Of a stretch of 64,000 nt of DNA, positions 1,480 to 52,378 are shown in pieces; within the stretch, counting starts at the first letter, position 1; each line of letters starts with the position of its first letter. The notes beneath the pieces were generated by a model. That model was not told the origin of the DNA and did no database searches. It saw nothing but the letters and a program-made list of their open reading frames with translations. The translations under genes were made by a program, and so were the position numbers. The stretch is from Chrysoperla carnea (Eukaryota > Arthropoda > Insecta > Neuroptera > Chrysopidae). The stretch lies in the NCBI RefSeq assembly GCF_905475395.1, contig NC_058338.1, positions 70,257,435 through 70,321,434 on the forward strand, in the 5' to 3' direction.

Positions 1480-4400
1480 ATGTTAAAAATTTCTATAAAT
1501 TATAATATGTGTTCGATAATATATGTGTCAAATTTATTATTTTTGTGTACAATAATACCGTCACATGTAACGGTAGGACTTCCGAATATAATTACCGCAG
1601 ATCGTTATTATAGTGATTATATAGAACAAAATAGCGGTAGTAAAGTTTTATCATCATCATCATTGTATGTTCTTGGAAATGATATTGCATCCGGTATTTT
1701 CGTTGATAGAAATATTATTGAAGAAGATGATGCATCTTTAGTACCAAGAAAATTGGAAACACCATTTAAAGGTAATGAGCATTTATCTTTTTATATAATT
1801 AGGTCGCTCAATAGTTTTGTCCGTTTTTATGAGTCTGCTATAAACTGTAATATTTCAGTGAAAATTTATTCAATTTAATCGAAATACGCGTTTTTTGAAT
1901 CAGTGCGTAACATTAGTCATTTAATTCCGTCGGCATAAAAATTGGGTGCTTGGGATTCGATGAAGTAGGCAAAGGCCGTTTTTGGTTTATCTTGATTTTC
2001 GATGTTTTTCCCGTCTAAAAGTTATCGAAGTGCATGAAAAGTTGATAATCGGTCGGCAAGAGTTCTGGGGAGCATAGTGGGTGAGGGAGAACTTCGACGC
2101 TCAATTCGTTTACTTTCGGATGGTGATTTGTGAAACTTGCGGACGGCCATTGTCGTAGATCAGGATTCGGAACACTTCTGATGATCAGTGCCAACTGCTG
2201 CTTACGCAATTTCCGATATATTTCGACGATTTCCTCACAATATGACTATGTTGTCATGATTTAGACTGGTTGCAGAAAGTTATTTTCTACCTACTTTTCG
2301 AAATTTCAACCTTTCCAATATGTTTCAAACCACCAAAGTGTAGTATAGATAAAATTCTCTATCGATCAGTATATACCACGACACCGTAGAATAAATATTT
2401 GTTCAGATACGGAGCTACAAAAACACATGACATTAAAACGGACAAAACAACCAAATATTTAAAGAAGTACTTTAATTTTTTATCTCCAACGTTTCCATCG
2501 AATGTTTTGTTTTAGAATTCCCTTGATAGAATTTTTTTCCAGATAAGGTTTATTTTTATACGGGCCATAAACTCACTTAAAGATAAACCGTTTATGCGAA
2601 TTTTGATCTATAATTGCGTTATTTTTAGTAAAAAAGTCCTTATGCTGAACTGGATAAACTCTCATGTGCTCAACTTTTTTTACTACTGATATTGATAAGG
2701 CAAGCGAACATATTTTTTCACACAAATTAAAAAATCGTAAAGGATGGCTTTCGAAATTTTGTTATCGTCCTTTTTTAAGAGATTCGACTGATAAGTTCTA
2801 GTCTCGTGTCTTCAAAGTATCATTATGTGTAATTAAAAATCGCTTTGAAATAATCGAACTTCGCAAATTCATCCTAACCCGACTAGAAATTGTCCCAGTA
2901 CTTATATTGGGGCCCGCTTGGGATTTGTTGGGGCATGTCCCAATAGGTCTATCCCAATTGGGATCCGATTGGGAACCTTTTGGGATAGCCCAATGTAAAA
3001 ATAGGCGATTTTATAATAGTTTTTCCCAACTGGGGCCTATTTGGGAACTTATTGGGAAAGCCCAAATTAAATTAAAATAGGTCTATCCCAATTGGGATCC
3101 AATTGGGAACCTTTTGGGATAGCCCAATGTAAAAATAGGCGATTTTAAATAGTTTTTCCCAACTGGGGCCTATTTGGTAACCTATTGGGAAAGCCCAAAT
3201 TAAATTAAATGATAAACACAACGGTTTAATTGTTTGAGTGGGACCTGGTTGGGAACACGTTGGGATAGCCCGATGTAAAAATTAAATAATCTTTACTCTA
3301 TTTTTACCGGATTTTGAAAAATTTGATTGCTTTGAATAAAGCAAATATATATGTTCTTAATCTTAGTACAGTTAATTGATTTAAAAAATTTCCTACTTTA
3401 TTAAAAACAATCATAATTTTTCAATTAATTTTTTTTGTTTAAGTTATTTTTTTATAGTAAGTAAATAGTTATAAATTTAGAAAAAAATAATTTCCCTAAA
3501 AAAGTTTTAATTCAAAACGCTTTACTTCACTTTTAACTCTGTACTTTGAGTATTTATAAACTTTTCGTTTTTTACATAATCTATTTTTTTCTCTTAATAT
3601 TATTCTGTTATTGCTATTTCCCTTCTATTTGAATCAAAAGTATCAGTTCTTCATTTTTGAATTTTCCGCGTTTTATTTATTTAAAACATTTCAACAGATG
3701 GCGCTACGAGAAGTTTTTTATTTGTCATAATAAAAACACTGTGATTAACAAACGATCGAGTAATCGAGTATGAATCGAAAATAAGTGATTTTTTATAGTT
3801 TTTTTTTGTTATTTTAATTTATAAAAATTCAGCATCATACTATATCATAAAATTTTTTAAGTGCATTTACGTTTAATTGAATTATATTATTTTGACATAT
3901 GTGTAACGAACTTTTGAGTGTAATTGAAAGTGAGGTTATGTAAAATGTGAACTTGGACTTCTACGGACCAGAAGTTTTTATTCAAGTATACAAGGTAAAA
4001 ATTTCGATCACAAGTTATATTGTAATTATTAAAAAAAATAGTTCTTACATTAATAATTTTTTTTTTTTAATTATTATAGATGTCTTTATTAAAAAACTAG
4101 CTTCCAGTCCCGAAAACCCACTAGACGATAAAGAAATTTTGAAGGCAATGACAGCAGTGATACAAGGTGCTCGAGATTGGGATGGCCATCGTCTTCTTCG
4201 TTTAAAAAAATGATCATTCTATTGACTGAATCTATTGTATTTTTATAAATTTATAAATAAAAAAATTTGCTTGGTAATTTCCAGTTTATTTTTAATTTGA
4301 AGCTATAGGCTACATCATGATTGTATTGATTAACAAGGGGCAAATGATTTACAATAAGGTAAATTAAGCGGGAACAGACCGGGATTATTCGATTGGGAAT

Positions 4401-10400: not shown

Positions 10401-13400
10401 GAAGTTACTTTAATTGAAAATTGAATACGATATGAATCAATTGGAAGCCTAAAAATTAGTATTAAACGTTTAATTGAAGTTATTGGTGTAAAAAACTTCG
10501 ACATTTAAATTCGGGTTTGCTAAAAACCTACAGGGAGCATAACATTTATGTTTAAGCTAAAAAATAAAGTACAATTACTTTGAAACGTTAATTGTTTTGT
10601 TTTACGATGCATATATGTAATATGCAAGGTATACTAAGTTTCCGAATGTTTGTACGTCCGCCCGCCGTCTGTCAACTAGATAACTCAAAAACGAAAAAAG
10701 ATATCAAGCTGAAATTTTTACAGCGTACTCAGGACGGAAAAAGTGAGTAAATGAGCAACATAGGTCAATTGGATCCTGTAAACCGTTAGAGATAGAACAA
10801 AAGTTTAAATGTAAAAAAATGTTCCTTATCAAAAAATAAACAACTTTTGTTTGAAGCATTTTTTCGCAACTGTTTACCCATGAGGGCGCAAATTAGGCGT
10901 AAATTGTATAGTATGTATTATATGGGAATACCAGTTATATATGTGTGACATGTATGTATGTATAATGTAATAGAGTAATCAACACTGTCTATACATGGAA
11001 TTTCAACAATTAACTCAGTCAATTGTTTGTTTTCACTTGTTTTTATTTAAATTTTAAAAAGTATTATTCTTATTGAAAGACCCTATATTTTTATTATAAA
11101 TAAACATTTAGAATATTTGAATAAAAAGTGGAATATAAAATTGTATGAAAATGTAATTTTATTACACAGTAAGAAAAAGAATTTATGAAAAATGTTCAAC
11201 TTAAAAGACTTAAAAGACAAATTTATGTTCTTTAATTAAATTTGTGGTCATATAACCATATAAGCATATTATAGCACTCCATATGCATTTCAGAGAATTT
11301 TCCTTTTAGTTAAAAGTATGCATGATAATTTTTACATTTATTTGCTGACTTGTATAGTCGCAGCAAGCATAGGTTAAAGCACTAAAAACAAAGTATCCCA
11401 ACTGACTTTTTAAACAAGCGCGGAGTCAGCCAATTTGGGGGGGGGGGGTGTATTGAGAATTTTTATGTGTATTTTTAAGAATAATAATTTTTTATTATTA
11501 ATTATTGCTTTGACTTTTATTTTTGTTGACTTATATTGAACCTGAAAAATCTGGTTTATTTTGATATCGATTGAAATTCCTCTGGAATCTCGCATTTCGT
11601 TATACTATTTTAGTTGATATCTCAGAAACGACTTGTCAATCATGAAAGGAACCCACTTCTTGTATATGATTTAAAATTTCTTTAAAAAATAGGTTTTTTA
11701 ATTTTCTCGGTTTTTCGAAATTTTCTCAAATTAGTTTTAGAATCTATTCGACCAAGCATGAAAATAATCAATTTTTTGAAATTGTTAATTGTCAAAATAA
11801 GAAAATGGTTTTTATCCAAACCGGAGGCTAACAATTTTTTTCATGGATATTCATTTCGAAATTTCTTCATGAATACCCTTCTCAAAAATTGAGAAAATTA
11901 CAAATTTGTCTAAAATCCGAGCGATTGCCTATTCGAGAGAAATTTTTATTTTGGAGCCATTCTGGATATCTTCCGTAAAATATTAATCTAATCATTAAAT
12001 AAACTTTTTTCATATTTTTTTGTATCGTCATTACCCTAAAGAAAGAACAAGTTTAGTAATAAAGGAATTACTAAACTTACCATTATCAATATTTTAAAGG
12101 TCAGGTAAAACGAACCAAACAATTTTCACTTCATTTAATACTCACGATTTTGTCCAATTTGCCCATATCATATTTTTAAAAGAGGTATGCTGCAATTAAA
12201 AAAGATCTCGTATTCTTTTGTTATAGGTTTTACTTTAATATTTATCTATAGACAACAGAGAAAAACATTAGGTTCACTACTCTCCGTTAATCCACCAGGA
12301 AGGCTGTCACCATGGTTTCAAGTAACGTCAAATCTACGTACAGGGCAATTAATATTGCATTATCGGATTACTAGCGATGTCAAACAACATCAAGTATACT
12401 GGCCAATAACACAGCAACATCATAAAGCTTGGCCATTAACCGGTAAGACATTATCTATTTCATTTAATTTAACAGTGCTACAGTGTGTTTCAGGTAAACA
12501 CAATTGTAGAATTAAATGAAATAAAACCAAGAAATGTTTTAAGAGCTTCAAAATGCTTTATTTGTTTTGTAATGGGATAGCTATCAATCAAATCATATTT
12601 TTAAATTAAAGCGATATTTCTCATTCATGTTTACTTCTAACCTCATACTAAAAGCAAAGAGATGTGAAGATCAGTTCCCCAACTATTTAAGATCTTTGTT
12701 AAATTCAGGGTAAAGTGGTATACACTTTTATTATTTGAAAATTTCCCTTCTCTTTATGCAGCATGGACTTGGTTAGCAATATCTGTTGACTATAATACAA
12801 GCACCATTCGTTTGGATCAAGATTGTCTTCCAAGAAGGTATCATTCATTACAACAACGGGTGGAGCAACCTCAATCTCATATTGACGCACCTTTAGATGC
12901 ACTTGTTTATTTTCGACAGGAACCAGGTCGAAAGAAACGGTTTTTGGTAAGTAAAAAAACTAATAAAACAATTTTCTTCTATTTTAAAAATATATTAATA
13001 GTACAAGGGCCTCAGATACCGAATAACCGAATTAATTTCACCACTTGTTTAATTTTTCTGAAAGAAATTGACACAAGAAAGAAGAAGAGTGGTCGGACTA
13101 TCAATAGCCATACTGATTCCTTTGTCCTGCATCCTTTAAATTAAAACTTTGGGAAGCCAGAATTTAACAATATTCACCCCGCTGGCGAAGATATACATCG
13201 TAAAATTGTTGAATAACATTATTGAGAGTATCTTTTTTCGATGGGTGTTCATAGTAAGAAGACATACTTCACAAAAGTGCAATGATTCGAGGGTGAATCA
13301 ACTTCAGCTTTGTTTCGAAATTCCATTATTGTACATCAAAACCTCACGAAAGTACATACATTATCATTTACTAATAAGAAACTGTCTTTAGCATTATTCA

Positions 13401-13567: not shown

Positions 13568-13990
13568 TACTTTAATCGTGTCAATTTAATATCTGTTGAG
13601 TAATATGGCTGGAACAATTTGGTCCACATATTCACGTTTTTGAAATTTTATTTTCAAACCTTGGATGGTTTAATAATACTTACCGTTTTAGGTAATCTTA
13701 TATTAATAATATCTATTAATAGTAAACGACAAATTTGTAATTTATTTTTAGACAAATTGATTCAGCCATGAGACTGGGGTATTAATTTAATTATGTCTCA
13801 TAATTTAATAGCCAGAATGTATCAAATATCGTATAAGCCGTGTTTGTTGCCACGTTAGTGAATCAGTAAATATATCCATAGATTCAACTGTTTGTTAGAT
13901 GGTGTCGAACTATTTATTCAAATTAATTTTCAATTCAAAAGCCCGTGACATAGCAATGATGCTAATCGATAAAATTCGAGCTAAATGGAG
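13568..13990. other. Intergenic stretch between the TSPN-domain gene and the long-TIR element
   Basis: It presumably holds the 3' UTR of the upstream gene. I found no canonical AATAAA signal. It ends with ATGGAG, the left target-site duplication of the neighbouring element. Confidence 0.4.
13985..13990. repeat. Left target-site duplication (ATGGAG)
   Basis: ATGGAG abuts the outer end of the left arm at 13991 and is repeated exactly at 17925-17930 beyond the right arm. This fixes the element borders and shows integration by a cut with a 6-bp stagger. Confidence 0.85.
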
Positions 13991-14033
13991 AGTAGTATAA
14001 AAATGAGGACTCTACCTCACTTGAAGGTCTTCT

Positions 14034-14181
14034 GAGGTCATTGACCTAGATTGGAGATGCATTGACCTAGAAATGAACGACCTTGAGTGCATTGACCTAG
14101 TTTTGGATGCACTTTTTGGGGGATGCATTTTTTTTTTGGATGCACTTTTGTGAATGCGCTTTTGAGGATGCACTTTTGAGA
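14034..14181 (+). repeat. Subterminal direct repeats, left arm
   Basis: Three copies of CATTGACCTAG are followed by about four copies of GATGCACTTTT or close variants, all within 200 bp of the terminus. Such clusters often bind the protein that recognises the element ends; that role is inferred. Confidence 0.75.
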
Positions 14182-14322
14182 TCATTGAACTCTGATGACG
14201 TATTGTTTCAACAATGGATGTACTTCAACAATGAGAACAACCTTCTCATTCGGTAGCCGTCGTCCAATTGAAGTATGAAGTGCTGATGTAAGTATAGAAA
14301 TACACTTTTTTTAAAAAAACAA

Positions 14323-14397
14323 GAGTAAGCAGCGAGATTTGAACGCAGGTCCATATGAATGGAAGTCTATTACGCTATCCACTAGACCACGGAAGCA
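14323..14397 (-). tRNA. tRNA-like sequence, left arm (probably a tRNA-derived relic)
   Basis: Mirror copy of the sequence at 17518-17592. The A box TGGTCTAGTGG fits the consensus; the B box region reads CGTTCAAATCT and is imperfect. A T run follows. The T stem appears to lack two bases and the anticodon stem does not pair well, so it is not a normal functional tRNA. Confidence 0.5.
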
Positions 14398-14968
14398 TGT
14401 GTCTGTATAGTCAAAAAAGTTTAATATATGAAACACAATTAATCTAATATATTGTAATGGAAAAATTTTGATATGCTAATTTACATATAACATTAAGTGA
14501 TTTTGAATATATGAAATTTTATTGCAAAAACAGGTTTAAAAAATTCGTTATTTCTAAACAGGTAACTACTATTTATAGATGTGTTAAACAACCATAGCAC
14601 GTTAACATATTTAAAATTTTGTCAATTGATGGTTATGTGATGTAGATAATTAAATATTCAAAGCAGGTGTTTTAAAAAAAAAAAATACTTATTCTGTTAA
14701 AATTAATGAAAATTGATTTTATTATAAAATATTATATATGATTTTTTTAATAATAAAAATTTTTAATTATTAACATTACTTGTTGAACACCCACATAAAT
14801 CCGATCCATTCCAATGAAATCCTCATAAGCATCCATAGGAGACTTAATTTTCTTCAACAACCAAATACCTAGATTATTTGAAAATTTTTAAGTTTATATT
14901 TCTTGCCTTACATACATTAATAAGACATGTTAATATCATAACTCCTTTATAGAATATAAAAAATTTAC

Positions 14969-15253
14969 CTAATCCCAAGATGTGATGACTTCCACATCCT
15001 TAAATAATTTCTGAAGGAGGATTCTCTCGGTCTCCCCACCCACGTAAATCCTCCCCGCGTTCTCATAGGAGAGAATAGTTCTTACTATTCTCACCATCTC
15101 TGCTAGCGTCACCTCATTTGCCCATCTACCATTCCACTTCAACCTCCAATAGTTTGAAATATATAAATGCTCTTTTGCATCACCATTCTTATAAATCACC
15201 ACTTCCTTGATTTGGTTATTTAAAATAACCAATTTTAAAGAAATTTTTACCAT
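14969..15253 (-). CDS. 94-aa protein of unknown function, left-arm copy
   Basis: It is identical in sequence to the right-arm copy at 16662-16946 and is transcribed outward. It begins MVKISLKLVILNNQIKEVV and ends EVITSWD. The protein looks like a compact alpha/beta fold: two predicted beta strands at the N-terminus, a Trp-rich centre (YWRLKWNGRW), a helix around EVTLAEMVRIVRTIL and a Gly-Gly turn (YVGGETE). There is no signal peptide, membrane segment or zinc motif. A TATA box lies about 65 bases upstream (15316-15322). I do not recognise the family. Perfect conservation in both arms argues that it is expressed or recently was. Confidence 0.75.
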   Translation of the reverse strand: MVKISLKLVILNNQIKEVVIYKNGDAKEHLYISNYWRLKWNGRWANEVTLAEMVRIVRTILSYENAGRIYVGGETERILLQKLFKDVEVITSWD

Positions 15254-15315
15254 TTTAACTTGTTTTAAAATTTTAACTTGTGTTAAAGATGCTCAGGTGG
15301 TAAAAATATTCAAGC

Positions 15316-15322
15316 TTATATA
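15316..15322 (-). promoter_or_regulatory. TATA box of the left-arm 94-aa gene
   Basis: On the minus strand the sequence reads GGTATATAAGC, 63 bases before the start codon, leaving room for a 30-40 base leader. It is mirrored at 16593-16599. Confidence 0.55.
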
Positions 15323-15791
15323 CCCTAATATTCGTGGATGAATACATTTTTTCTACAAATCTTTTTATCAAAAAGCTTAATTAACTATAAAAATATCCGC
15401 TCAAAAAAACTAGAACCATGAGAGTGTTTTTCAGTTAAATATGATATCTGGGATTGTTATGTAAGAATAAAAAAAAAATTCCATTAGATATAAAAATGAG
15501 AAAAATAATATTTTAATTGATACTATATGCAAATTAGCAAAATCAATAAATTTAAAAAGTGTTTGGCATGTTAATAACCTTACATCAACATATCACGGGA
15601 GAAATGAAATTTTCAAGGTTGCTATACCATTATATGGAATATATTCAAAAATATTTAGCAAAATTAATCTTGTATATAAACTACCTCATTAGCGAGAGAT
15701 GTTAAAAATTTTTTTTATTAGATATTATATCTGAAAAGCAGGTGTATGAGGAACATGTTATTGAAATGGAGAGATTATCATAAAAAAAGGA

Positions 15792-15799
15792 TATAAATA
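15792..15799 (+). promoter_or_regulatory. TATA box of the central element gene
   Basis: TATAAATA stands 63-70 bases before the ATG at 15862. An initiator-like ATTAGTTG lies about 30 bases downstream, near 15822, the usual spacing for RNA polymerase II. Confidence 0.6.
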
Positions 15800-15861
15800 A
15801 GTAGAAAAAGTTTGTCTTAGAATTAGTTGTGAATTGCTTTTAAAAGGTTTAGTGCTACAAA

Positions 15862-16431
15862 ATGGAGAATATAATTGAGGTAAGTTTTTATATAATTATT
15901 TTTCTATTTCTTTTATTATTTTTTTTTTTAATTTTTATATATATATTTCTATTATTTTAATAGGATTTAAATATTGATGATTTAGATTGTGAAATCACCA
16001 ATCAATATTTATATATGATGGCTAAGAAAATGGAAGAAAATTATCCACGTGTAATTAGCAATGTTTCCCTCCCTTCCCTAAACTTGGATGATTACTTGAC
16101 ACAGGATTTAAATGCAGAGTTTAACCCATCCTTATCAATCGATACTTTGCTTTCAGAATTGGAGGCATACTTAAATCCGTCTTCATTTGGACATTCTATT
16201 GATCAATTTAAAGACAATTCAAATCAACCAAGAGCCAATCATTTTAAAGATAATCCATCATCATCCGATCCTTCAACATCTGCTCCTTCTAAGCAATTAA
16301 TATCGCAAAGTAAAGCATTTGTTTATAAACCTGCAAGGCTTCGTCATCGAAAAATATATAAGAAACCTGCTACCAACGAGAAAAGAAAATACCGACAAAA
16401 AAAAATTTATTTTTCTCATTTTTATATCTAA
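15862..16431 (+). CDS. 161-aa two-exon protein of the long-TIR element
   Basis: Exon 1 is 15862-15879 (MENIIE) and ends at a consensus GTAAGT donor. The intron is 84 bases with a T-rich tract and TAG acceptor; exon 2 is 15964-16431. The junction is phase 0. The N-terminus is acidic (EDLNIDDLDCE), the middle is Ser/Pro/Asn-rich (SSSDPSTSAPS), and residues from about 130 are strongly basic (RLRHRKIYKKP, NEKRKYRQKK), suggesting nucleic-acid binding or a nuclear localisation signal. Without splicing the frame would start at Met 16015. The last eight codons and the TAA lie inside the right terminal repeat, so the gene ends in shared sequence. I do not recognise the family; a regulator or packaging-like basic protein are possibilities only. 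Confidence 0.7.
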
Positions 16432-16592
16432 TGGAATTTTTTTTTTATTCTTACATAACAATCCCAGATATCATATTTAACTGAAAAACACTCTCATGGT
16501 TCTAGTTTTTTTGAGCGGATATTTTTATAGGTAATTAAGCTTTTTGATAAAAAGATTTGTAGAAAAAATGTATTCATCCACGAATATTAGGG

Positions 16593-16599
16593 TATATAA
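16593..16599 (+). promoter_or_regulatory. TATA box of the right-arm 94-aa gene
   Basis: GGTATATAAGC stands 63 bases before the start codon at 16662, the mirror of 15316-15322. Confidence 0.55.
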
Positions 16600-16661
16600 G
16601 CTTGAATATTTTTACCACCTGAGCATCTTTAACACAAGTTAAAATTTTAAAACAAGTTAAA

Positions 16662-16946
16662 ATGGTAAAAATTTCTTTAAAATTGGTTATTTTAAATAAC
16701 CAAATCAAGGAAGTGGTGATTTATAAGAATGGTGATGCAAAAGAGCATTTATATATTTCAAACTATTGGAGGTTGAAGTGGAATGGTAGATGGGCAAATG
16801 AGGTGACGCTAGCAGAGATGGTGAGAATAGTAAGAACTATTCTCTCCTATGAGAACGCGGGGAGGATTTACGTGGGTGGGGAGACCGAGAGAATCCTCCT
16901 TCAGAAATTATTTAAGGATGTGGAAGTCATCACATCTTGGGATTAG
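16662..16946 (+). CDS. 94-aa protein of unknown function, right-arm copy
   Basis: Same protein as at 14969-15253, here on the + strand and also transcribed towards the outer end of its arm. The start is the first ATG after the TATA box, in context AAGTTAAAATGG; the stop is TAG at 16944-16946. Having two opposed copies means any expression doubles gene dose, and recombination between arms can keep the copies identical. No homologue is recognised. Confidence 0.75.
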   Translation: MVKISLKLVILNNQIKEVVIYKNGDAKEHLYISNYWRLKWNGRWANEVTLAEMVRIVRTILSYENAGRIYVGGETERILLQKLFKDVEVITSWD

Positions 16947-17517
16947 GTAAATTTTTTATATTCTATAAAGGAGTTATGATATTAACATGTCTTATTAATG
17001 TATGTAAGGCAAGAAATATAAACTTAAAAATTTTCAAATAATCTAGGTATTTGGTTGTTGAAGAAAATTAAGTCTCCTATGGATGCTTATGAGGATTTCA
17101 TTGGAATGGATCGGATTTATGTGGGTGTTCAACAAGTAATGTTAATAATTAAAAATTTTTATTATTAAAAAAATCATATATAATATTTTATAATAAAATC
17201 AATTTTCATTAATTTTAACAGAATAAGTATTTTTTTTTTTTAAAACACCTGCTTTGAATATTTAATTATCTACATCACATAACCATCAATTGACAAAATT
17301 TTAAATATGTTAACGTGCTATGGTTGTTTAACACATCTATAAATAGTAGTTACCTGTTTAGAAATAACGAATTTTTTAAACCTGTTTTTGCAATAAAATT
17401 TCATATATTCAAAATCACTTAATGTTATATGTAAATTAGCATATCAAAATTTTTCCATTACAATATATTAGATTAATTGTGTTTCATATATTAAACTTTT
17501 TTGACTATACAGACACA

Positions 17518-17592
17518 TGCTTCCGTGGTCTAGTGGATAGCGTAATAGACTTCCATTCATATGGACCTGCGTTCAAATCTCGCTGCTTACTC
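17518..17592 (+). tRNA. tRNA-like sequence, right arm (probably a tRNA-derived relic)
   Basis: The sequence around TTCCGTGGTCTAGTGGATAG matches a Pol III A box (TGGTCTAGTGG, full consensus). The B box is CGTTCAAATCT (9 of 11 to consensus), with a run of seven T at 17596-17602 that would terminate Pol III. The overall text resembles insect tRNA-Arg-like D and anticodon regions, but the T stem is missing two bases, the acceptor ends do not pair, and the anticodon stem is weak. It could still be transcribed as a small RNA. Confidence 0.5.
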
Positions 17593-17664
17593 TTGTTTTT
17601 TTAAAAAAAGTGTATTTCTATACTTACATCAGCACTTCATACTTCAATTGGACGACGGCTACCG

Positions 17665-17685
17665 AATGAGAAGGTTGTTCTCATT
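17665..17685 (+). other. Perfect hairpin downstream of the tRNA-like sequence
   Basis: AATGAGAA and TTCTCATT form an 8-bp stem around the loop GGTTG. The mirror copy lies at 14230-14250. It could be a recognition site or an RNA structure. Confidence 0.6.
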
Positions 17686-17733
17686 GTTGAAGTACATCCA
17701 TTGTTGAAACAATACGTCATCAGAGTTCAATGA

Positions 17734-17881
17734 TCTCAAAAGTGCATCCTCAAAAGCGCATTCACAAAAGTGCATCCAAAAAAAAAATGCATCCCCCAAA
17801 AAGTGCATCCAAAACTAGGTCAATGCACTCAAGGTCGTTCATTTCTAGGTCAATGCATCTCCAATCTAGGTCAATGACCTC
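17734..17881 (-). repeat. Subterminal direct repeats, right arm
   Basis: Mirror of 14034-14181: AAAAGTGCATCC-type repeats, then three CTAGGTCAATG units running to the right terminus. Confidence 0.75.
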
Positions 17882-17924
17882 AGAAGACCTTCAAGTGAGG
17901 TAGAGTCCTCATTTTTATACTACT

Positions 17925-17930
17925 ATGGAG
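17925..17930. repeat. Right target-site duplication (ATGGAG)
   Basis: Exact repeat of 13985-13990, immediately outside the right arm. Confidence 0.85.
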
Positions 17931-24960: not shown

Positions 24961-25480
24961 TACCATGCATATACGTAATATGCATATACGTAATATGCAA
25001 GGTATACTAAGTTTAGTCCCAAGTTTGTAACGCTTAAAAATATTGATGCTACGCACAAAATTTTCACCTAATTAATCACCTAATTAATCCATTCCCGGTT
25101 GTCCGTCCGTCTGTGAACACGATAACTCAAAAACGAAAAAAGATATCAAGCTGAAATTTTTACAGCATACTCAAAACATAAAAAGGGAGGTCGAGTTTGT
25201 AAATGAGCCACAGAGGTCCATAGGGTCTTGGGTCCGTAGGACCGATCTTGTTTCTTATAAAAAAATAAAAACTTTTATATGAAACATTTTCTTGTAAACA
25301 TCACTGTTTCCTCACGAGAGCACACATTATATGCAAATTTTATATGTAATTATGTATTAATTTGGGATTATCAGCTATGTGTGATATGTATAGGTATATG
25401 TGTAATGTGATAGAGTAATCAACACTGTCTATACATGGCATTTCAACAATTAACTCAGTCAATTGTATGTTTTCACTTGT
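24961..25480 (+). repeat. Interspersed repeat family A, copy 2
   Basis: The copy starts TACCATGCATATACGTAATA with a duplicated hairpin arm. It contains GTTTAGTCCCAAGTTTGTAA, GATATCAAGCTGAAATTTTT and GGTCTTGGGTCCGTAGGACC, and ends ATGTTTTCACTTGT. It is nearly full length. Confidence 0.85.
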
Positions 25481-26792
25481 TTTTCAATAAATTTAATTTG
25501 ACATTTATATATATGACATAACAGCCCCATTAAACGCCAAAATTATCCATTGGCATCGCTGGCATCGATTTGATTGTCCCTACCATGACTACAAACCTAT
25601 CGAATATACATACCATCCTTTAGTATTACATATATGCATACCATATACTTGATGTGTCCTTCTCTAAAATTATATTAATAATAAAGTAGTGTGTTATTAC
25701 CATGGAAACTCTGAATTAAAATTTATACGCGGTGCGAATACAAAGACTTTATCTTAAAAGTTTATCTCACCATAAAATAGTTATAAATTCTGACGCAATT
25801 TATCAGTTTTATACCTCTTATCGATAGTGTAATAATAAACCATAATAGTGTAAAGCCATCAATATCCAATATGCCCAGCAAAAACAAAGTTTTAAATTGT
25901 TTTCTTTCGAAGTAAACGTAAATGAGAGGTTATCGGAGTAGGATGTTTTTGATCAGACTTTTAACAATGTGGCGGCCATATAAGAGTCTCGGCCCATTTT
26001 TCGTCTTAAAGTCTGGTTTATTAAAAAAAGAATTATTAAAAATAAAAAGTATATTTTTTAAAATTTCATATTTACAAAAATTAAAACATAATTTTTTTCT
26101 ATGTATCTTAAACATAAAACTAGAACAATTTTATATATAGTAGGTATAAAAGTGGTAAAAAAATAAAATAAAATGTAGTTATAATAATAATTAAATCAAT
26201 TATCTTTGAAATAATCTTAATAATATTTACAATTATTAAAAAATTTCAAAATTATGCATTTTTATATTATTTGAATATTAAAATAAATAATCATTATCAT
26301 AAAATTCCATTAAAAATAATATAATCATCTTTCAAAAGAAAAGATTATGCCCTATTTTTGTTCACCCTTCACGTAATTGTTTTAAGAAATAAAAGGGTTA
26401 ATAATGATATTTTAGTCATTTTGTACATGTCAGAAGATTGATTCACATCATTACGCCCATGGCAATTTTGATACGGTCTAGATTGTGTCGAATAGTGGAA
26501 ACGATAAAAGATATAACCTTTAGTTTTAAAAGTTTTCATGGAAGTTAGAACTTAAGTTAATTTATTCACAATAATGTTTTGGTTTGGAACGTTAAAAAAA
26601 TTTAATAATTGTGAACAATACGGAATCAAATTTTGGAAAATTAAATAAACTATTGGTCATAACACAAATTTTTTCATGAGTTTGTTGTTTTTACATCATT
26701 TTAAAATCGTATCAAAATCATGTCGCTTCGTAAATGTGAATCAAGCCTAAGACTTTTCTTAAGATTACGATTTGCACTACTAATACTTCATT

Positions 26793-27762: not shown

Positions 27763-28290
27763 GCCCTGTATATATGAAATATACAAGAAGCTATACTAAT
27801 TTTGAAAATATTATCATAAAATCGCACTTAATAAGTTCAAATATGTACAATGTGAGCTGAAATATTTATAGCATATTCAGGCAGGAGAAAGGTATCTTGT
27901 AAGCCATAAGAGATATTAGAAAAGGTCTTAATGTAAACGTTATTCTTTATAAAAAATAAACAATTTTTTTTTGAAACATTTTCTCGTAAATATAATTGTT
28001 TTCTCGCGAAGGAGTAAATTAGCGAAAACAGAGAGTTGAAAATTTGTAAATAGTTTCAATTAATGAGTCTTGTGATACATTTTTGAAAAACGTAATAATA
28101 AGTGTTCTTAAAAATACTTTTAAATTTTTTAAATAAATTTTTGTAAACTAGAACAAATGGCTGCCGAAAAACCTTCGCTGGTTTTTTAAACTTTTCTAAT
28201 TTATTAAAAATAATGCCAGCACTAATATTCAAAATTGTCTATACAGAGTGTTTCAACAACTAACTCAGTCAATTCTTTATTTTCAGTTAT
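27763..28290 (+). repeat. Interspersed repeat family A, diverged copy 3
   Basis: Recognisable landmarks include a CCCTGTATATATGAAATATA hairpin start, CTGAAATATTTATAGCATAT, AAATAAACAATTTTTTTTTG and the end GTTTCAACAACTAACTCAGT. It carries an extra internal segment (GAAAAACGTAATAATAAG) shared with the copy at 33857. Confidence 0.6.
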
Positions 28291-30458
28291 TTTATGTTTA
28301 ATTTGTTTAGGGGTGTTTTTTCTATCAAACTTGTAAGGTAAGATAGAAAAAGAAAATGTTTTAAACAGAAGTTGTTAAAAGGTAGTCATTTTATAGTGAT
28401 CTTAAATTTCAAAAGTCAGTTTAGACGCCTTACCTACAGGATTCGTTGTTTAATATTTGTAATTATAAGGCAATTTTAAAATTAAGACGAATCAAACATA
28501 TTGTTTTCTGCAATTTGTTGTAAAAAGAATTGCTACATTCTGGTATAAACCATAGTCCCACACATTAAAAATTTTGTGATTATTTTATGTATTCGCTGTG
28601 CCTGGTTAAACATTTTCATATTAAACAAATCTCGGTAGGGGGGTGATTTCTTTTAGGGAGCCCTGAAAATTGTTGATTGTCGATAAGCTTGAAATTGATA
28701 AATATCCAATTAAAAAAATAAATTCAAACAAACTGAAAAATCTTCTTATCCAGATTCAAGAAAAAGAGATGGCGATTAAGTGTCAATGACAGCCCGTTTA
28801 ATCAAATGTCGGAAAAAATTATTTTCACTTGTTTCGATGATCTTCTTAGTCTACAAATTCAATATTCTGGGTGTCCAAATTCAAAATATTTTGGACACCT
28901 TGAAAGAAATTATCCTCTACCGAGAAATGCATATACTCTAATAGGACAAAGGCCACAAAAAAAAAGTAAAAAAGATGAGGCAATCACAAAGTTTTTTTAA
29001 GCTCAGGTCTGTCATTTCATAACAAGGTTTTCACAATATGAATTTAAATATTTCAAGATTATTTTCAACGTTAGCGTACAAATTGACACGTTTTGAATAT
29101 AAAATAAATAAACTATTCCATACTAATAAATAATTAAATACTAGGTCAGACGAATATAAATAATGTAGGCACTTTCATATAATTTCAATAATTTTTGTTT
29201 TTTGTTGTTTTTTTTCGTTGATGTTTTTTACTAAACAAACAAAACAATAACACAAGCAACATTTTAGTTTTACTGTACAAACAGCATTTTAATTTTAAGT
29301 ATACACTCAGTATATGTTAATTAGTCACATACAAGTGAAACTTTAATGTCTTTTTTTGTTTTAAATCACGTATAATTATTTTATATTTTTAATCAAAAAA
29401 ATCTAATAATGAGTCTGATGATGACTGCGTTGTTGTCGATGAATTATGTGGCCTTTCTGTGGTCCTTATCAACGATGATTGTGTCACTTGTGTTACAACC
29501 TAAAACAAAAAAGAAGCAAATTATTAGTATTGATAAAAATAACCAATAAAATAATATATATTTCAGAAATCATGAAAATCATTAAAATTATGCATCATTT
29601 AAGAGACATATTATTATATGAACAGGGTGTTTACTTAAGTTGGCTACATATGGAAAACTTTTTTTATAAGGTTACGAAAAAAAATTCTTTAAAAAATCTC
29701 TGCTTTCGAAAATATTAACATTAAGCTATTCCCTTTTGACATCGAATGTATAGGGTGTCCAAAAATTTAAAAATTCGATGGTCGTTTAGAAATGTAGACC
29801 ATTTTGAACAGATAATAAGGCAAACGATTCAAAAAATCATTCCCGAGATATGTAGGGGTGTGTTTAAACAATTATGTAAAAGAACAATTACATGTATGGA
29901 AAACGCAGATGGATACGTTGAGGCGAAAACGAACTGAAGATAACTGTTTACGAATGAGTTAACAATGTTAACAATGGGAATGTTTTGATAACTTCAATTT
30001 TGAATTATATTTTTCAAATTCTACTTATAAAACACGTTATCTATTATCCAAATTAACCAGTCATCGTAATTAAAATGTTTATTTGCTAATTTGAAACATT
30101 CATAACAAAATACAAAATACACTCCTGCATTTCGTAATAAAAATAATTTATAATAAAAGGTCTGTCAGAAGTAAATTAACAAAAATTGAACGCCAGATCA
30201 ATTTTTTCAAAAATGGTTCATTATTTATTATAAATTGTGTAAGTTTCAAGCAAGAGTTTTGAAAAAAAATTAGCTTAATTAAAAATGATAACAATTAACA
30301 AATTTTTATTAGTCTGCATTAACAAGTTTTTCAGTCATTTTCACTTTATAATTTTGAGGTGTTAGATGGGTGTCTTTTTCTGTTATGGGCTCTGATACCA
30401 ATATTAAAATATTAAATTATTAGCCCAATCAAAATTTTTAGAGTAAAGCTACTAGTTG
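28291..30458. other. AT-rich stretch without a supported gene
   Basis: A 64-codon frame at 28806-29000 (CPNSKYFGHLERNYPLPRN) has no visible exon context. Two CAGGGTGT-like sites (29623 and 29751) resemble mariner ends, but no partner ends were found. Confidence 0.35.
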
Positions 30459-31004
30459 TACCATGAATATATGAAACATATCATAGTATATTAAGTTTAG
30501 TCCCAAGTTTGTAACGTTTAAAAATATTGATGCCACAAATAAAATTTTCGTATAAATGTTCATAAATTCAGCTAATTAGCCCATTTTTTTGAGCTGTCTG
30601 TGGACACGATAGCTCAAAAACGAAAACGATATCAAGCGGAAATTTTAATAGCGTGCACAGGACGTAGAAAGTGAGGCAAAATTCGTAAATGAGTAACATA
30701 GGTCAATTGGATCTTGAAACCGTTAGAGATAAAACAAAAGTTTAAATGTAAAAAATGTTCCTTTAAAAAACTTTTGTTTGAAACATTTTTTTGTAAACTT
30801 CACTGTTTACCCACGAGGGCGCAACTTAGGTGCGAATTTTATCATATGTATTATATGGGAATATCAGTTATGAATGTACGGCTATCTAAGAGTGGATATG
30901 TTTCTTTACTACGTGACGTCAAAAAACAAACGATTGCCTCATCAACACTGTCCATAAATGGTATTTCAACAATTAACTCAGTCAATTGTTTGATTTCACT
31001 TGTT
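30459..31004 (+). repeat. Interspersed repeat family A, copy 4
   Basis: The copy starts TACCATGAATATATGAAACA and AGTTTAGTCCCAAGTTTGTA. It contains GAGTAACATAGGTCAATTGG and ends CAATTAACTCAGTCAATTGT with GATTTCACTTGTT. The 103-codon frame at 30714 is a shadow of this repeat. Confidence 0.8.
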
Positions 31005-31542
31005 TTAATAGCAACGTTGGTGTGAATCAGAAGTTACAGTATAGACTTTTTCACCACAGAATTATGAAAGTAAACATAATATAATCACTTCTTGCAGAAT
31101 ATTTATATTGTAATTAATTGTCAAATACAGTTTAAAGACTAATGACCAAAGTCGTTGTGGTAATTATCTTAAAACATAAAATATAATAATAATAATATGT
31201 TAGTTTCTATCTATATAATAACTCAGACAATTTACATAAATTATTCTAGAACATAAATTTTCGAATATTGTTTTCGAAGTTATGTGACATATACATTCAT
31301 TCATTCATACATACCGTACTCGTACTGTACTCTGTACATAGAACGGTGGCATTTTAATCATTTCATATTTGTAACTATATCTATCTAATGCATACATACA
31401 ACAATACATTTATAATACTGCATTACTGCATTATGGATGCAATTGAAATATTACATTTGTGTAATTTAAGTAGTGCAATTTCCCCATAAAATGTATAAAT
31501 CGTATATAGTCGCATCAATGAATATTTTAGTCAGGAGTCCTC

Positions 31543-33785
31543 AATGAAGTAGGTATCTTTTGTGTTTTCATTCAATGAAGTAACTAGCTGAGTCTAACTG
31601 GTATGCTTTACAGTATTTTACTCGTGGCGGTGTCGTTTTGGCGTTAAAATCCAATAACAGCAAAACAAGTCAAAAAACTTGTAACTTTATTGTGGTATCT
31701 AATCACTATACGTAGCGTTTTAGTTAATTTAGCGGTGCCTTTAAAGTACTTAGTTGATATGATAAATTTGACATAACATTCGGTAATTATACCATGCATA
31801 TATTTAATATGCAAGGTATACTAAGTTTAGTCCCAAGTTTGTAACGTTTAAAAATATTAATGCTATGAACAAAATTTTCGTATAGATGGTATAGATTCCG
31901 TCTGTTCGTCTGTCCGTCTGTCTGCCAACACGATAACTCAAAAACGAAAAAATATATCAAGCTGAAATTTTTACAGCGTACTCAGGACGTAAAAAGTGAG
32001 GTTGCTCATGTATGAACTTGACATGAGGTTGACTAAAAAAGTGTTGCTCATGAACTTGACATAGGTCAAGTTCATACATGAGCAACATAGGTCAATTGGG
32101 TCTTGACCTATGGGTTCGTATTACTCATCTTGTAAACAGTTAGAGATGGAACAAAAGTTTAAATGTAAAAAATCTTTCTTATCAAAAAATAAACAACTTT
32201 TGTTTAAAACATTTTTTCGTAAACATCACTGTTTACCCGTGAGTAATGTATGTATGTATGTGTAATGTAATAGAGTAGTCAGCACTGTCTATGCATGATA
32301 TTTCAACAATGAAGTCAATTGTTTGTTTTCACTTGTTCTTAAGTTATACTTGCTGCTACAATCGGATTTTATCTTTATCGTATTATTTCAAAACACCAGA
32401 CTTTAAAATCGTATTCTACATTCAATAGGGAATTCTTAGGCCATTCTTAGGGAATCCTCAATGACAACTCCGATTTTGATTTTGTTTTCAAAATGATTAT
32501 TTTGTATATTATTTAAAATCAGAAAAATATCAGATGGGTGAAATAATCTGAAGGAGGAATAGGCAATGTCGATGATATATCGATGCCCAGTCTAAATCGC
32601 TTATGATAGAAGTTTGTAATTTCGAGAAGATATTAATTTTATACTGTAGGTATCACATAAAAAAGGATTTCTCGAAATTCATCCCCTAAAAGAGTGAAAT
32701 AGAGGATTAAAGGTTTTATGAAAATATATATAAACCGTCATTTTTGAGTTCACTACTTAACCGATCTAAAAAGGTCTTTCACCTATAGAATGCTGCATTA
32801 TCAGCAATAAAAATGGACTGTATTTTACTTTATAAAAATTAAGATTTCGCTTCAAAAATAAGAAACCATTAACATGGCCATATTTTCTTTTCAAAATTAT
32901 TAGGGATTCGCATTAAAAGTTACAATCCATTAATGGTGGACAAAAGGAAAGTTAAGAGAATTTTTGGTTATACCGTGGAAAACTACTAGTTATTTATATT
33001 GCTTAAACAATGTTTGTGCAACTTGTATAAAAAATTAATTCTAGCGTGATTTTTTTCCACAAAAAATAGCAATTTTTTAATTTAATAGCAATAAAAATTG
33101 ATTTTAACTTTTGGTGCAGAATCCTAACTTTTTTGAAAATGAAATTCAACCCATATTAATTGGGGATAATGTAGCATTCTTTAATAATTCTTACAATATA
33201 AAATCAATATCTTCTCGAAATTCCAAACTTCTATCATTAGCGATTCAGGCTGGGCTTCGATATATCAGTCGCGACATTGCCTATTCCCCCTCCAAATTAT
33301 TTCCCCCATCTGAAATGTTTCTGATTTTAAATAATATACAAAAAGAACCATTTTGAAACAAAAAAATCATCAAAATCAGAGTTGTCATTGACGATTCCTT
33401 AAGAATGGCTATTTTATGTATTCCTTTATCCGACTAATACATTGAATGTAGAATACGATTATAAAGTCTGGTGTTTTGAGATAATACGATAAAGATAAAA
33501 TCCGATTGTAGCAGTATAAGTAAGTATAACTTAAGAAATATTACCGAATGTTATGTTAAATTTATCATATCAATTAAGTACTTTAAAGACACCGCTAAAT
33601 TAACTGAAACGCTATGTATAGTGATTAGATACCACAATAAAGTTACAAGTTTTTTGACTAGTTTTGCTGTTATTGGATTTTAGCCCCAAAATGACAGCGC
33701 TACGAGTAAAATACTGTAAACCAAACCTGTTAGACTCAGCTGATTATTTCATTGAATAAAAAGACAAAAGATACCTACTTCATTA
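31543..33785. mobile_element. 2.2-kb foldback element with a nested family A insertion
   Basis: The outer ends are AATGAAGTAGGTATCTTTTG and its inverse near 33785. The left arm (31543 to about 32670) pairs with the right arm (about 33165 to 33785) through AAATCCAATAACAGCAAAAC, AATCGGATTTTATCTTTATC and TGATATATCGATGCCCAGTC. The left arm is interrupted at 31789-32336 by a family A repeat that is absent from the right arm. The roughly 500-bp loop has no convincing gene; the 81-codon frame at 33111 runs into the right arm. The arms differ at many positions, so it is older than the element at 13991. Confidence 0.8.
31789..32336 (+). repeat. Interspersed repeat family A, copy 5 (nested)
   Basis: Comparison with the intact right arm of the host foldback element (CGGTAATATTTCTTAAG) puts the borders at TACCATGCATATATTTAATA and TTTTCACTTGT. 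The 5' end forms the hairpin TACCATGCATAT/ATATGCAAGGTA, and ACAATT-AATTGT forms a hairpin about 15 bases before the 3' end. A 30-base local duplication around CATGAACTTGACATAGG (32010-32090) is specific to this copy. Confidence 0.85.
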
Positions 33786-47345: not shown

Positions 47346-50300
47346 CTTTGAATGACCTGCATTCGTTTCAACAATTCCATCCGGTGGAGGTGTATACGGC
47401 GTTAAATCCATAAGACCCCATAATGCTTTGTACAATGAAGGTGTTCGATTTTTTTCTCTATCAGATTTTGTGGACCTAGCAGTCGTACTAGTTGATTTTG
47501 TGGTAGTTTCTAAATTATTAACTGTAAAAATAAAAAATGGAGTAATATGCAAGTCAATTTTAATGCAAAAATGTTGTCAAACGATTGAAATTCGAGTATT
47601 CTCTGGGCGAATTTTATTTGTCCTATCCAAACCAGTTATAATTTTAGGCGGCCCGTAAAAAACGAAACTGAAAGCTAATATTAAATAAAGAGAATTGAAA
47701 AAAATACACTCGAACCAGGATTCGAACTTCTTGGATTCATGCTAATACATTGGTATGTGCTAAAATGTATTTGCATATTTTTTTGTACCAACTTATGTTT
47801 AAGGTCATGTTTGATTAAATTGAATTCAAAACTGTTGAAGATTAAAAAAGTTTTGGCTACTGAACCGTTTTCGTTTTGAAGTATTGACGAACGGACAAAG
47901 AGAAAAATCGATTTAAGAAAACTGTAATCTAATTATTTTCTACGGTTTATATTTTTAACCATAATAGAATATTCAAACTTACTTGATTGAGGCCATTCAC
48001 TATAAATAATTTTTATATCATTCGCCTTCTTAATCGATGTGGCAGGTGTTGGCCGAACAACAAATCGCGGTGACACAAAATTAAAATTATCATCATCTGC
48101 TATTTCATTTGTTGTTGCGTTCTTCGCATGAATCCATGCAGATTTGGGTGTACTTTCGTTTGGATTCCAAGGCTGTGGTGTCACAACATAAATTCGTTCT
48201 CCTGTTACTGGTGATTTTGATATTTGCCCTTTCTCCCAAATTGGTGTTGTTGACGATGTTTTACTGTTTACTTCCTCATCAATATCTTCATCATAAAATG
48301 ATGTATCTGTAGTAGTTTCCCAAGTGGTTTCGGGTAAAATTGTTTCTTTTGTTGTTTCATCAGTAACCGTTGATTCAGAACTCTCCTCAGTCGTAGTTTG
48401 TGAGAAAACAGGATCAGATACAATTAAATTAGATTCAAATAGTGTATTATTCAAATCACCAATGACAGTGACATTATGCAAGTTTGTGTGAACGGAATGT
48501 TGGATACTACCTGCTGGTTCATGGTCAAAATATAGCTTTGACCCAAAATTAAACTTGGGCACTTCAGTTGATGCAATATCTGAATTGAGATCATTTGTTA
48601 CAGCAGTTGTAGTTAAATATTCATTTGGAATTTTTTTCGAAGGACTAAGATGTCCAATTGTGCTAGCTTTAATTGTATCTTGTTGATTGGAGCTATGTTG
48701 AATTTGATCTGCGTATTCTTGTATTGTCCATTCGTCGATATTTTGTTGTAGACGTAAAATATCGAATGGTACACTCACTGAATCATCGATTCCATTTTGT
48801 TTTCCTACAATGAATTGATTATCATTTGGCAGTATACCATTTTGAGTATTAGTTAACCATAATAATGGAACATCTGATGGTGGTGTCATAAATATACCAG
48901 GATCAGTATTTTCCGGCATTTTTACTTGTCCGTTCAGGAATGCTTGCTGTTCTTGAATCCAATTAGCATTCAATTGTGAAATATCACCAGCTTGTTGGAA
49001 CGGTGTTGGATGACTATTTGATGTATATGGAATTATTATTTGGATTTTCTTTGGATTTTGGCTTGAGCTTGGTGGAGGTGGTGGTTTCATTCCTTCTGGA
49101 ACAGTTTCGGGTATGGTTTCTGTTGGTTCTGGTGTTACCCATATACCTCCGGCATTTGGCGCTGGTGGTACCATTGATGTGGATATTGGTCCAGAAGACG
49201 GTAGCCACGAACTATAATCAATTGTGGGTGGTGTGAATTGGGTTTGGTTATCTACATTCGAAAAATTGAATTCCTTAGCTGATTTCGTTTTTAATTCATT
49301 CTGAATTTCTTCACTGGAAATTATTTCGTAGTTGTGGTTAGGATGTTGATTATGATTTACAGAAGGTGAAATTTCTCCCTGAGTATCACGGGTTGATTTT
49401 AAGCCATCTTCATGATCACTTTCTTCATAATTTTGATCATTATGCTCTAAATAATTGTTAGCTTGTACCGAGATATTATGGGAGCTTGCAGCTGAATGTG
49501 GTTCATTTACCCCATTATCTTCATCTACAACAATTGGATTTTTCGAAAACATACCACCATGGGCATCTTTAGACACAGTAATTTCATTCTGTTTAATTTT
49601 TTCATCATTATCGTCTGTATTTGGATCGACATCTTTTTCGGCAATAATATCTACAATTGGTGCTTGTGATAACGTTGCTGGATATTCAATGGACGAGGTG
49701 AATTCGGCAATCGGAATACTTTTTACAACTTTGACTTCGGTTGTCAAAGCGTCATTATTAAAGATATGAGAATTTTGTGGTCGAGCAAAGTTGTTATTAT
49801 AGTTGAACACGTGGGAATTAAATTGTTGTGGTGAATTTGGTTGTGGGTGATGTCGTGGGGGAAGAATATTTTGGGGGGTGTGTTGTTGTGGCGGAAGGAT
49901 ATTTTGGGAGGAATGTTGGTGTGGCGGAAGGATATTTTGTTGGGAATGTTGGTGTGGTGGAAGGATATTTTGTTGGGAATGTTGGTGTGGTGGAAGGATA
50001 TTTTGTTGGGAATGTTGGTGTGGTGGAAGGATATTTTGGGGAGTGTGTTGTTGTGGAATATTTTGTGATGGAATGTGTTGCTGTTGTATATTATTCGCAT
50101 GATAGATATTGTGTGATGGTAAAACTTCATTATTGTGCAAAATTAAAGTTTGAGGTGGCGGTACCAAAATACTGTCTTCAATATGCTGTAGCGCACTGTG
50201 CTTCGTTTCGCTAATACTTGTGTCTTGGTGCAAGTGATTGTGGCTTGTAACATCTGGCTCTTGTGTGTTAACTTTTTCGGGAAGAGCATTTATTACATGT

Positions 50301-52378
50301 TTTATTAGATTATGGTTATGATCCACGTCTCCAGAATTACCATGTACTCCAGGTGGTGGATTAAGTTTCGATGGATTTGGAATATTGGTTAAATATTGTA
50401 AATTTCCATTTTCACTTTCATGAATTTCTATGGTCGTTATTTGTTGATTTTGATTATCGTTATGGCCACCATGTTGTTGCGGTAAATCTGTATAGAACGG
50501 TTGTGCATGATGGATTGGTGGGATAGGTCCTGGATTTAATTCAGGGAACGGAATAGGCGCTAGTGGCGGTTGGAGGAATTGTGCAGAATTATCATATATA
50601 GGAATATGGACAATAGATGTTTCTTGTGGAATTTCTGCTTGATTTGTGGATATAGGAAGTTGTTGAGGTGGTGGTCGATATTCTTCGCTAGTTGGAGTTA
50701 CTGGTTTGGTTGTATCTTGTGTGGGTAGAGGATTTTGTGGTTTACTTAATTGTGTTGAAACAACAAGGTGATTATCGACGGAAGGTGCTAAATGATAGGC
50801 AGTAGTTGGAGGAATACTGAAATGGGCGGCATTATGATGTGGAGGGGGAGCTAGTATACTTTGTTGAACTGGGATATATTTCAATTGACCTGAATTAGTT
50901 GGAGGTATGTATTTGTTGCTATTTGATATTGAGCTTCCAAAGTGTGAGGCACTAAAACCACCATACACCAAAGGTGTACCATATTTTATCGATGGCCCTA
51001 AATTATTTTTAATTTGTGTATATGGATTTTTGGATGGTGGTCTGCTTAATTTCAACGATGAGGTGCCCTGAATATTTATACCATGTCCACTTGCAGGTGG
51101 TCCTAAGTAATCTCCAATGTATTGTGGAGCATACAGAACATTTGGTTTTCTATTTGCTCCAGAATATCCACTGTTAAACGGTATTGAAGGCTTTTGCGAA
51201 GGTAGCGATTGTAGTTTATATGAAGATTGTCCATTGAATTTCTGTGAGTGCGAACTTAAAATGGTTGGCTTATTAGATTGGCTAATCAGTTTTAATGGTA
51301 CACTATAATGTGAGCCGGGTTTTTGATATGGTAAACCATATGATACACTTAAAGACTGAGACCCTCCATGGATGCTAGATAACTTCAATGGAGTTGGTGA
51401 TACATTTGAAGATCCATGTATAACATTTGGCGCAGGACTTAACGGTCGATTATGACTAGATGATATATGAGCACTTTTTGGTGGTCGATACGCTTGTTTC
51501 AATGGTTGATAATGTCCAGAATCGGCTGGTGGCCTATTATAATTTGAATTTGGAACACCATATGTATTATCTAATGAACCAGCTGAATTATCATGATTTA
51601 CATGAATAATGGAGTCAGGTAAAGGCTGTGGCGGACCATAAGTATCTGCAGGTGGTGGCCCATAGTTGTTTTGTATTTCTAAATTGTTTTGAACTAATGG
51701 AACATTCTGGGCAGGAGAACCATACGTGTCTTTTGGTGGGTGATAATTATTTTGATCAAGTGGTATATTTTGGAATGGTGGCCCATAAGTATCTTTTGGA
51801 GGATTAAAATGGGTAGATATAATCTCTACATTATCCACTCCTGATGGTGGAGGTGGAACACCATAGTTGTCTGCAGGAGGTGGTAAAATTCCTCCGGCAG
51901 TAATCACTTGAGTTTGGCCATCTAAATTTCCATGTCCACCGAAATTATTCTGATGAGGTGGTACAAATTCAATCACAGTTTGTTTTGCTGGTTGATTATT
52001 CAATGGTATCCAAGGCACCTCGTTGCATGGGTTACAATTCTCTTGTTGATGATCATGATTATGATAGATTCGCGGTGCAACAACATGCTGTGGTACTGGA
52101 CCAGTACTTTCAGCTTGTGAATCTTTACCAAATGGGAATATCCAACTAGCGACTCTTGACATAAACGACGGACTCTCTGTTGTCGTACTAACTGTTAGCG
52201 ATTTGCGATTATTACTTTCATATGAATTACTACTACTTCGATCACTGATTCGTACATCTTTATTATCTGAACTTGGTTGTTTGGCTACATCTGAATTTGA
52301 ATTTCTATTTGTTTCTAATGTGGAATCTGCCAGGCAATGTGTTATAAGTATAACACATAGTAATATTGTTTTCCGTCT
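47346..52378 (-). CDS. Large secreted low-complexity protein with YGPP motifs (two exons seen, ends missing)
   Basis: The main exon is 52378 to 47983 and the next is 47521 to 47346, joined by a phase-1 intron (donor GTAAGT, acceptor TTTTTACAG). The main exon follows a strong acceptor (TTTTTCTTTTTGTTACAG), so the hydrophobic frame upstream to 52501 is probably intron and the true ATG lies in an unidentified upstream exon. The exon opens with RRKTILLCVILITHCLADS, the core and cleavage region of a signal peptide. The protein, over 1,500 residues, is then rich in Pro, Gln, Asn, His and Ser, with repeated DTYGPP/YGVPPPP motifs in the first third, Gln/His repeats in the middle, and a Thr/Glu-rich mucin-like part near the end (ETTWETTTDT). 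A more ordered C-terminal block reads ERIYVVTPQPWNPNE and ALWGLMDLTPYTPPPDG. YGPP-type repeats are typical of insect cuticle or other extracellular matrix proteins; that role is inferred. The donor GTATGT after 47346 shows that at least one more exon follows. Confidence 0.8.
49850..50070 (-). repeat. In-frame 33-bp minisatellite in the large secreted gene
   Basis: About seven units encode variants of NILPPHQHSQQ; the middle three to four are nearly identical at the DNA level (GGAAGGATATTTTGTTGGGA on the + strand). The length of 33 keeps the frame. Several long open frames seen on the other strand here are artefacts of the repeat. Confidence 0.85.

Follow-up and report, generated by a model that had tools for sequence, protein, structure and literature searches.

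The window, a stretch of 64,000 nucleotides of the Chrysoperla carnea genome (C2:70257435-70321434 of an assembly of 559,487,470 bases in 337 contigs), contains a 3.9-kb element that is very probably a non-autonomous deletion derivative of a Polinton/Maverick, made up of terminal sequence only. The element occupies 3,934 bp between two copies of a target-site duplication, ATGGAG, read from the sequence at 13985..13990 and 17925..17930 (no strand), and is bounded by terminal inverted repeats of 1,518 bp. The left arm (13991..15508, plus strand) begins 5'-AGTAGTATAAAAATGAGG and is 98% identical to both ends of a 19.3-kb Polinton elsewhere in the genome (C5:71938898-71958220), and the right arm lies at 16407..17924 (minus strand). 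The original prediction, made from the window alone, had described two 1,518-bp arms with one mismatch, ATGGAG on both sides and termini starting 5'-AG, all of which proved exact. It also called the element one of unidentified type or a new family, while naming Polintons as a lead; the lead was borne out by the 19.3-kb element, which shares the ends, carries Polinton genes and is flanked by a 6-bp duplication, and the other labels are not supported.

A repeat search of the window gave a looser arm boundary, reaching 15519. No other inverted pair found in the window is as long as the two arms, and the 22-base tip (with at most three mismatches) occurs in it at the two ends of the element only and in none of 100 shuffled sequences. 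The next longest inverted pair (31543-31787 and 33540-33784; 245 nt at 92% identity, 1,752 nt apart) is possibly another mobile element.

A full-length Polinton with the same ends

When the genome was searched with the left arm, at least 73 matches were obtained (the best 40 of 99 candidates were scored), and two of them, facing each other, bound the longer same-ended element for which the original prediction had proposed to search the assembly. This 19.3-kb element is flanked on both sides by GGAGTT, and its ends start with the same AGTAGTATAAAAATGAGG as the window element. Its open reading frames (orfs) match the Pfam models of an rve integrase (1.4e-11, 45.0 bits, cut-off 32.6), an A32-type ATPase (Pox_A32; 1.8e-7, 31.4 bits, cut-off 22.8), a double-jelly-roll capsid protein (1.1e-82, 278.3 bits, cut-off 27) and a phospholipase A2-like domain (5.5e-6, 27.0 bits, cut-off 23.9), and an adenovirus-type protease falls under its cut-off (1.1e-3, 19.2 bits, cut-off 21.3). 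A 1,217-amino-acid orf shares 45.7% identity across 1,173 columns with another orf that is itself a PF03175 match (5.8e-30). The gene set, as predicted by these matches, is that of a Polinton/Maverick. The terminal repeats of the element are 4,049 bp long, with nine mismatches and five gap openings, and the start of PolB lies within both.

The window element and the 19.3-kb Polinton have in common their termini, a 6-bp duplication, 98% identity over the window element and a terminal orf of 94 amino acids; they differ in length (3.9 versus 19.3 kb), in the PolB, integrase, ATPase and capsid genes of the longer element and in its 4,049-bp terminal repeats. When eight Polinton proteins were compared with the window element, two matched (the pre-PolB orf, over 152 columns at 96.7%, and the 94-amino-acid orf), and nothing within it matched the body of PolB, the integrase, the ATPase or the capsid protein. 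The window element thus has AG/(AGT)2-type termini, a 6-bp duplication and terminal inverted repeats in common with the family, and lacks the PolB, integrase, ATPase and capsid genes and the size, well over 10 kb, of an autonomous member; because only the pre-PolB and 94-amino-acid orfs match, it is classed as a deletion derivative.

Intact vertebrate Mavericks are reported to have 6-bp duplications, an (AGT)2//(ACT)2 end motif and terminal inverted repeats of 46-1,447 bp on elements of 12.7-24.6 kb (PMC8097293). The ends of both C. carnea elements, AGTAGT...ACTACT, fit that motif; the 1,518-bp arms of the window element are just above the range given there, and the element itself is far shorter (PMC8097293).

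Two side observations concern Polintons elsewhere in this species. Many arm matches are clustered at C5:71.9-73.8 Mb, within about 2 Mb of one 76-Mb contig, and a public C. carnea gene model annotated as conserved oligomeric Golgi complex subunit 8-like contains a Polinton capsid domain, probably as a chimeric annotation.

Internal structure and junction

Positions 7-2420 of the window element align in one block to each end of the 19.3-kb element (97.8-98.0%), and positions 2418-3941 align to the same ends inverted (97.9-98.3%), so that it corresponds to the last 2.4 kb or so of that Polinton followed by its final 1.5 kb copied in inverted orientation. Read in this way, its structure appears to be a PolB-side end of about 2.4 kb joined to the inverted copy at a 5-bp microhomology. 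The junction, from either a deletion or a strand switch, lies at 16402..16406 (plus strand), where the two parts overlap by AAAAT: when a 151-bp junction query was compared with the genome, its bases 1-77 aligned to one strand of the 19.3-kb element and its bases 73-151 to the other. The breakpoints are 2,414 and 1,518 bp from the ends, and in the longer relative both positions belong to the 4,049-bp terminal repeats.

The unpaired spacer between the arms (15509..16406, plus strand) carries on from the left arm in the way seen at the ends of the 19.3-kb Polinton, at 98% identity. The start of the Polinton PolB gene region (15862..16431, plus strand), identified by the pre-PolB match, is predicted to consist of an exon (15862-15879), a GT-AG intron (15880-15963) and a second exon from 15964; in a full-length element these exons may be spliced onto PolB. 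In the window element the frame is cut off by the junction at about 16404 and ends in a chance tail. The 94-amino-acid orf is present in both arms (14969..15253, minus strand, with relatives in other loci, and 16662..16946, plus strand), as found in the orf list. The genes of its own that the original prediction gave the element are thus not supported in the sense intended: the spacer orf, a truncated piece of the PolB region, was rejected as an independent gene, and the 94-amino-acid orf is common to Polintons.

Six terminal sequences were aligned over the arms: both window arms, both arms belonging to the 19.3-kb element, one end (the right) of a 13-kb element described below and a lone end at C5:73499444. 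The sole difference between the window arms is at 15384 (plus strand), where the left arm has A and the right arm, read in its own direction, has C; since the other five aligned sequences all have C, the A is a change private to the left arm. The two window arms share an 18-bp deletion (14153), a T (15365) and two single-base insertions (14466 and 14755), none of which occurs in the four other ends. Because these private changes are common to both arms, and 15384 is all that separates them, the alignment indicates that the arms were one sequence, or were held alike, until insertion or formation of the element. If a rate of 2.9e-9 per site per generation is assumed, a divergence of one in 1,518 corresponds to about 0.11 million generations (range 0.003-0.63 million), a rough estimate because the arms may be kept alike before insertion. 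When the spacer was used as a query, it matched only one end of the element designated C238; the presence of the PolB start at both ends of the 19.3-kb element and of the spacer at one end of C238 suggests that ends have been copied or exchanged within this Polinton group.

Ends and target-site duplications across the genome

When up to three mismatches are allowed, the 22-base tip has eight matches in the genome, versus seven for a reversed control, and seven of the eight have at most one mismatch. These seven fall in four loci: the window, the 19.3-kb element, a 13-kb element (C5:73091625-73104577) with TTTCTT on both sides, and the lone end at C5:73499444. A tip sequence representing related subfamilies has 38 matches (33 with at most two mismatches) versus six for its reversed control. 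Among these 33 are 18 plus-strand tips, of which one has its nearest facing partner closer than 10 kb, ten have it at 13-31 kb and seven have none within 40 kb.

A 6-bp duplication is readable in 10 of 12 paired loci examined, and in the other two (C6:8.50 Mb and C5:71.909 Mb) one end is unreadable in the pieces fetched. The 12 leave out five tip pairs (C1:139.52, C1:139.72, C5:71.898, C6:3.83 and C6:5.28 Mb). Identical flanking 6-mers include GAGAGT (C238), TTGATC (C213), CTTGGA (C279) and TACGTC (C267), as well as AATTTT (C1:139.9 Mb), TAGCTA (C2:25.77 Mb) and TATTTC (C1:127.386 Mb).

A second short element

The last of these duplications, exact on both sides, belongs to a second short element of 5,062 bp (C1:127385881-127390942). 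Its ends match each other in inverted orientation over 150 bp at 99.3% and 64 bp at 100%, followed by blocks at 87-95%, and it contains the 94-amino-acid orf twice and a piece of PolB (residues 43-218); none of the integrase, ATPase, capsid, minor capsid, protease and pre-PolB proteins compared with it matched. In being short, with inverted ends, two copies of the 94-amino-acid orf, a PolB piece and a 6-bp duplication, it resembles the window element, from which it differs in subfamily (76-84% identity in matched pieces), in its junction, in its more decayed arms and in having tips that are not alike.

The 5,062-bp element sits inside a dispersed repeat. Once its flanks are joined, they align across the insertion point with no gap there to all five copies of the repeat in the window that were compared (10976, 25416, 28179, 30942 and 32276, the third and fifth of which are gapped elsewhere) and also to one copy in the locus L048, with 75-86% identity. 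The repeat copies are an empty site for a short element of this Polinton group. In the window the targeted repeat was located at 10957-11054, 25397-25494, 28207-28304, 30920-31017 and 32257-32354. The locus L048 (C1:132.80 Mb) was considered as a third short element and dropped, only one tip having been found.

Origin of the shortened form

We infer that a Polinton-type rve integrase, which the element with the same ends encodes, carried out the insertion at ATGGAG. The middle of the parent may have been lost during protein-primed replication: the polymerase would switch strands near an end, a terminal repeat would thereby be rebuilt, and the resulting short linear molecule would then be integrated in trans. 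Defective genomes formed by strand switching occur in other linear DNA viruses. Loss by such a replicative switch followed by integration in trans has about an even chance of being correct and is only slightly favoured; loss before insertion, in the course of replication, and later deletion at the site are close competitors, the single copy and the 5-bp microhomology being compatible with replicative loss and in-place loss alike. It is possible that the window element is a satellite mobilised by Polinton integrase: the same ends are found on an integrase-coding element, but the junction of the short form at one place only. The broader proposition that Polintons of this genome yield terminal-only linear genomes by strand switching, which are inserted in trans and constitute a natural satellite form in two subfamilies, is put forward tentatively, with the balance somewhat against it.

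A published parallel is provided by the EMALEs (endogenous mavirus-like elements) of Cafeteria burkhardae, which are DNA viruses that integrate and have an rve integrase, related to Polintons (PMC8547959). Three truncated EMALEs of 5-15 kb keep flanking terminal inverted repeats, which according to the authors must have regenerated after truncation (PMC8547959). EMALEs differ in being protist virophages with duplications predominantly of 3-5 bp (PMC8547959). These truncated forms are a precedent for loss with rebuilt ends, and they are likened to the window element by description, not by sequence.

Several observations weigh against this account of the element. Among 16 places matched by the junction query, only the window copy spans the junction, so that transposition of the short form is a possibility only; and because both breakpoints lie within the relative's 4,049-bp terminal repeats, a strand switch is indistinguishable from a plain deletion. 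The two tips of the 5,062-bp element are unlike each other (left AGAATGGGG, right AGTAGAGGG). The 1,217-amino-acid orf of the 19.3-kb Polinton has no Pfam match of its own and is outside the 49 PF03175 matches of the genome, and its identity as PolB therefore depends on the relative to which it is 45.7% identical. A full-length Polinton might instead have inserted at ATGGAG and then lost about 15 kb of its middle in place, by end joining or a palindrome-driven event, in which case the element would never have moved in its 3.9-kb form. Such a loss would leave both ends and the target duplication intact, and its likelihood is only a little short of even. It accords with the single occurrence of the junction, with the 5-bp microhomology and with the rarity of short forms (the one in 18 related-subfamily tips with a facing partner under 10 kb), and nothing decisive speaks against it, although the breakpoints inside the relative's terminal repeats, together with a second short element of similar plan, are somewhat better fitted by end-copying.

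Long, nearly identical arms are prone to collapse, and the element might be a misassembled full-length Polinton locus in which two long arms were collapsed together. This is very improbable given the perfect 6-bp duplication, the arms that differ by one base while having in common changes private to the locus, the contig spanning 100.7 Mb, the junction seen nowhere else and the left flank, 401 bp of which matched only itself in a genome search that skips very common words. A new family of long-repeat DNA transposons without kinship to Polintons might have been supposed from orfs that have no matches in Pfam, NCBIfam, PHROG or IMG/VR; with the whole length 98% identical to Polinton ends in the same genome, and the same ends on the 19.3-kb Polinton, it was ruled out and is hardly conceivable. 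Miniature inverted-repeat transposable elements are very short (under about 600-800 bp) and have many copies, and the window element, at 3.9 kb with a junction at one place, was rejected as one of them. Foldback elements have long inverted repeats made of internal tandem units; this class was likewise rejected, the tandem stretches of the arms being limited to units of 14 and 18 bp in 2-3.4 copies.

The finding is clear but modest, and serves mainly as an example of how Polintons give rise to shortened versions. If short derivatives with intact ends moved as such, they would show that Polinton ends suffice for insertion and would be signs of errors made in an animal genome when a protein-primed element is replicated. 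Recognising stubs of this kind also helps annotation, where they would be filed as unclassified long-repeat transposons. A phrase search of an open-access library found no paper on non-autonomous, miniature or MITE-like Polintons or Mavericks, and none of the papers listed by broader searches has that subject in its title or abstract opening; Repbase and subscription papers were outside the scope.

The 94-amino-acid orf and other features

Within the subfamily, copies of the 94-amino-acid orf have 98.9-100% identity; the figure is 71-74% for three related loci and drops to 39-43% for relatives near two other PolB loci. Its ratio of nonsynonymous to synonymous substitution (dN/dS) is 0.22-0.25 against the three related loci and, with few changes, 0.48, 0.63 and undefined among those three; these values suggest that it encodes a real protein. 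Among 5.8 billion proteins no relative was found, one candidate falling short of E 1. A fold was predicted confidently from seven sequences, with a pLDDT (predicted local distance difference test) of 85.8, and its order of strands and helices is one that we take to be that of RNase H-like folds. Such folds are among the weak structural matches of the model, as is a Drosophila-associated adintovirus protein at E 0.25; none of the 514 and 788 matches in the two sets reached E 0.001. The orfs of the window element have no match in Pfam; neither the 94-amino-acid orf nor the parental spacer orf has one in NCBIfam, nor the parental forms of both in PHROG. IMG/VR yielded no confirmed relative of the 94-amino-acid orf, a 161-amino-acid orf, the capsid protein or PolB, and no exact end sequence.

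To the eye, one stretch of the arms (about 17520-17588, with its mirror image at about 14327-14395) looks like the remains of an arginine tRNA, including words that resemble A and B boxes. This reading was rejected, since ARAGORN and Rfam gave no match either in the window or in the related loci covered (20 and 16). Elsewhere in the window, an open frame of 1,522 amino acids (47933-52501, minus strand) is composed of repeated His/Gln/Pro-rich units and has a distant likeness to uncharacterised insect proteins (best match 31% over 28% of the query).

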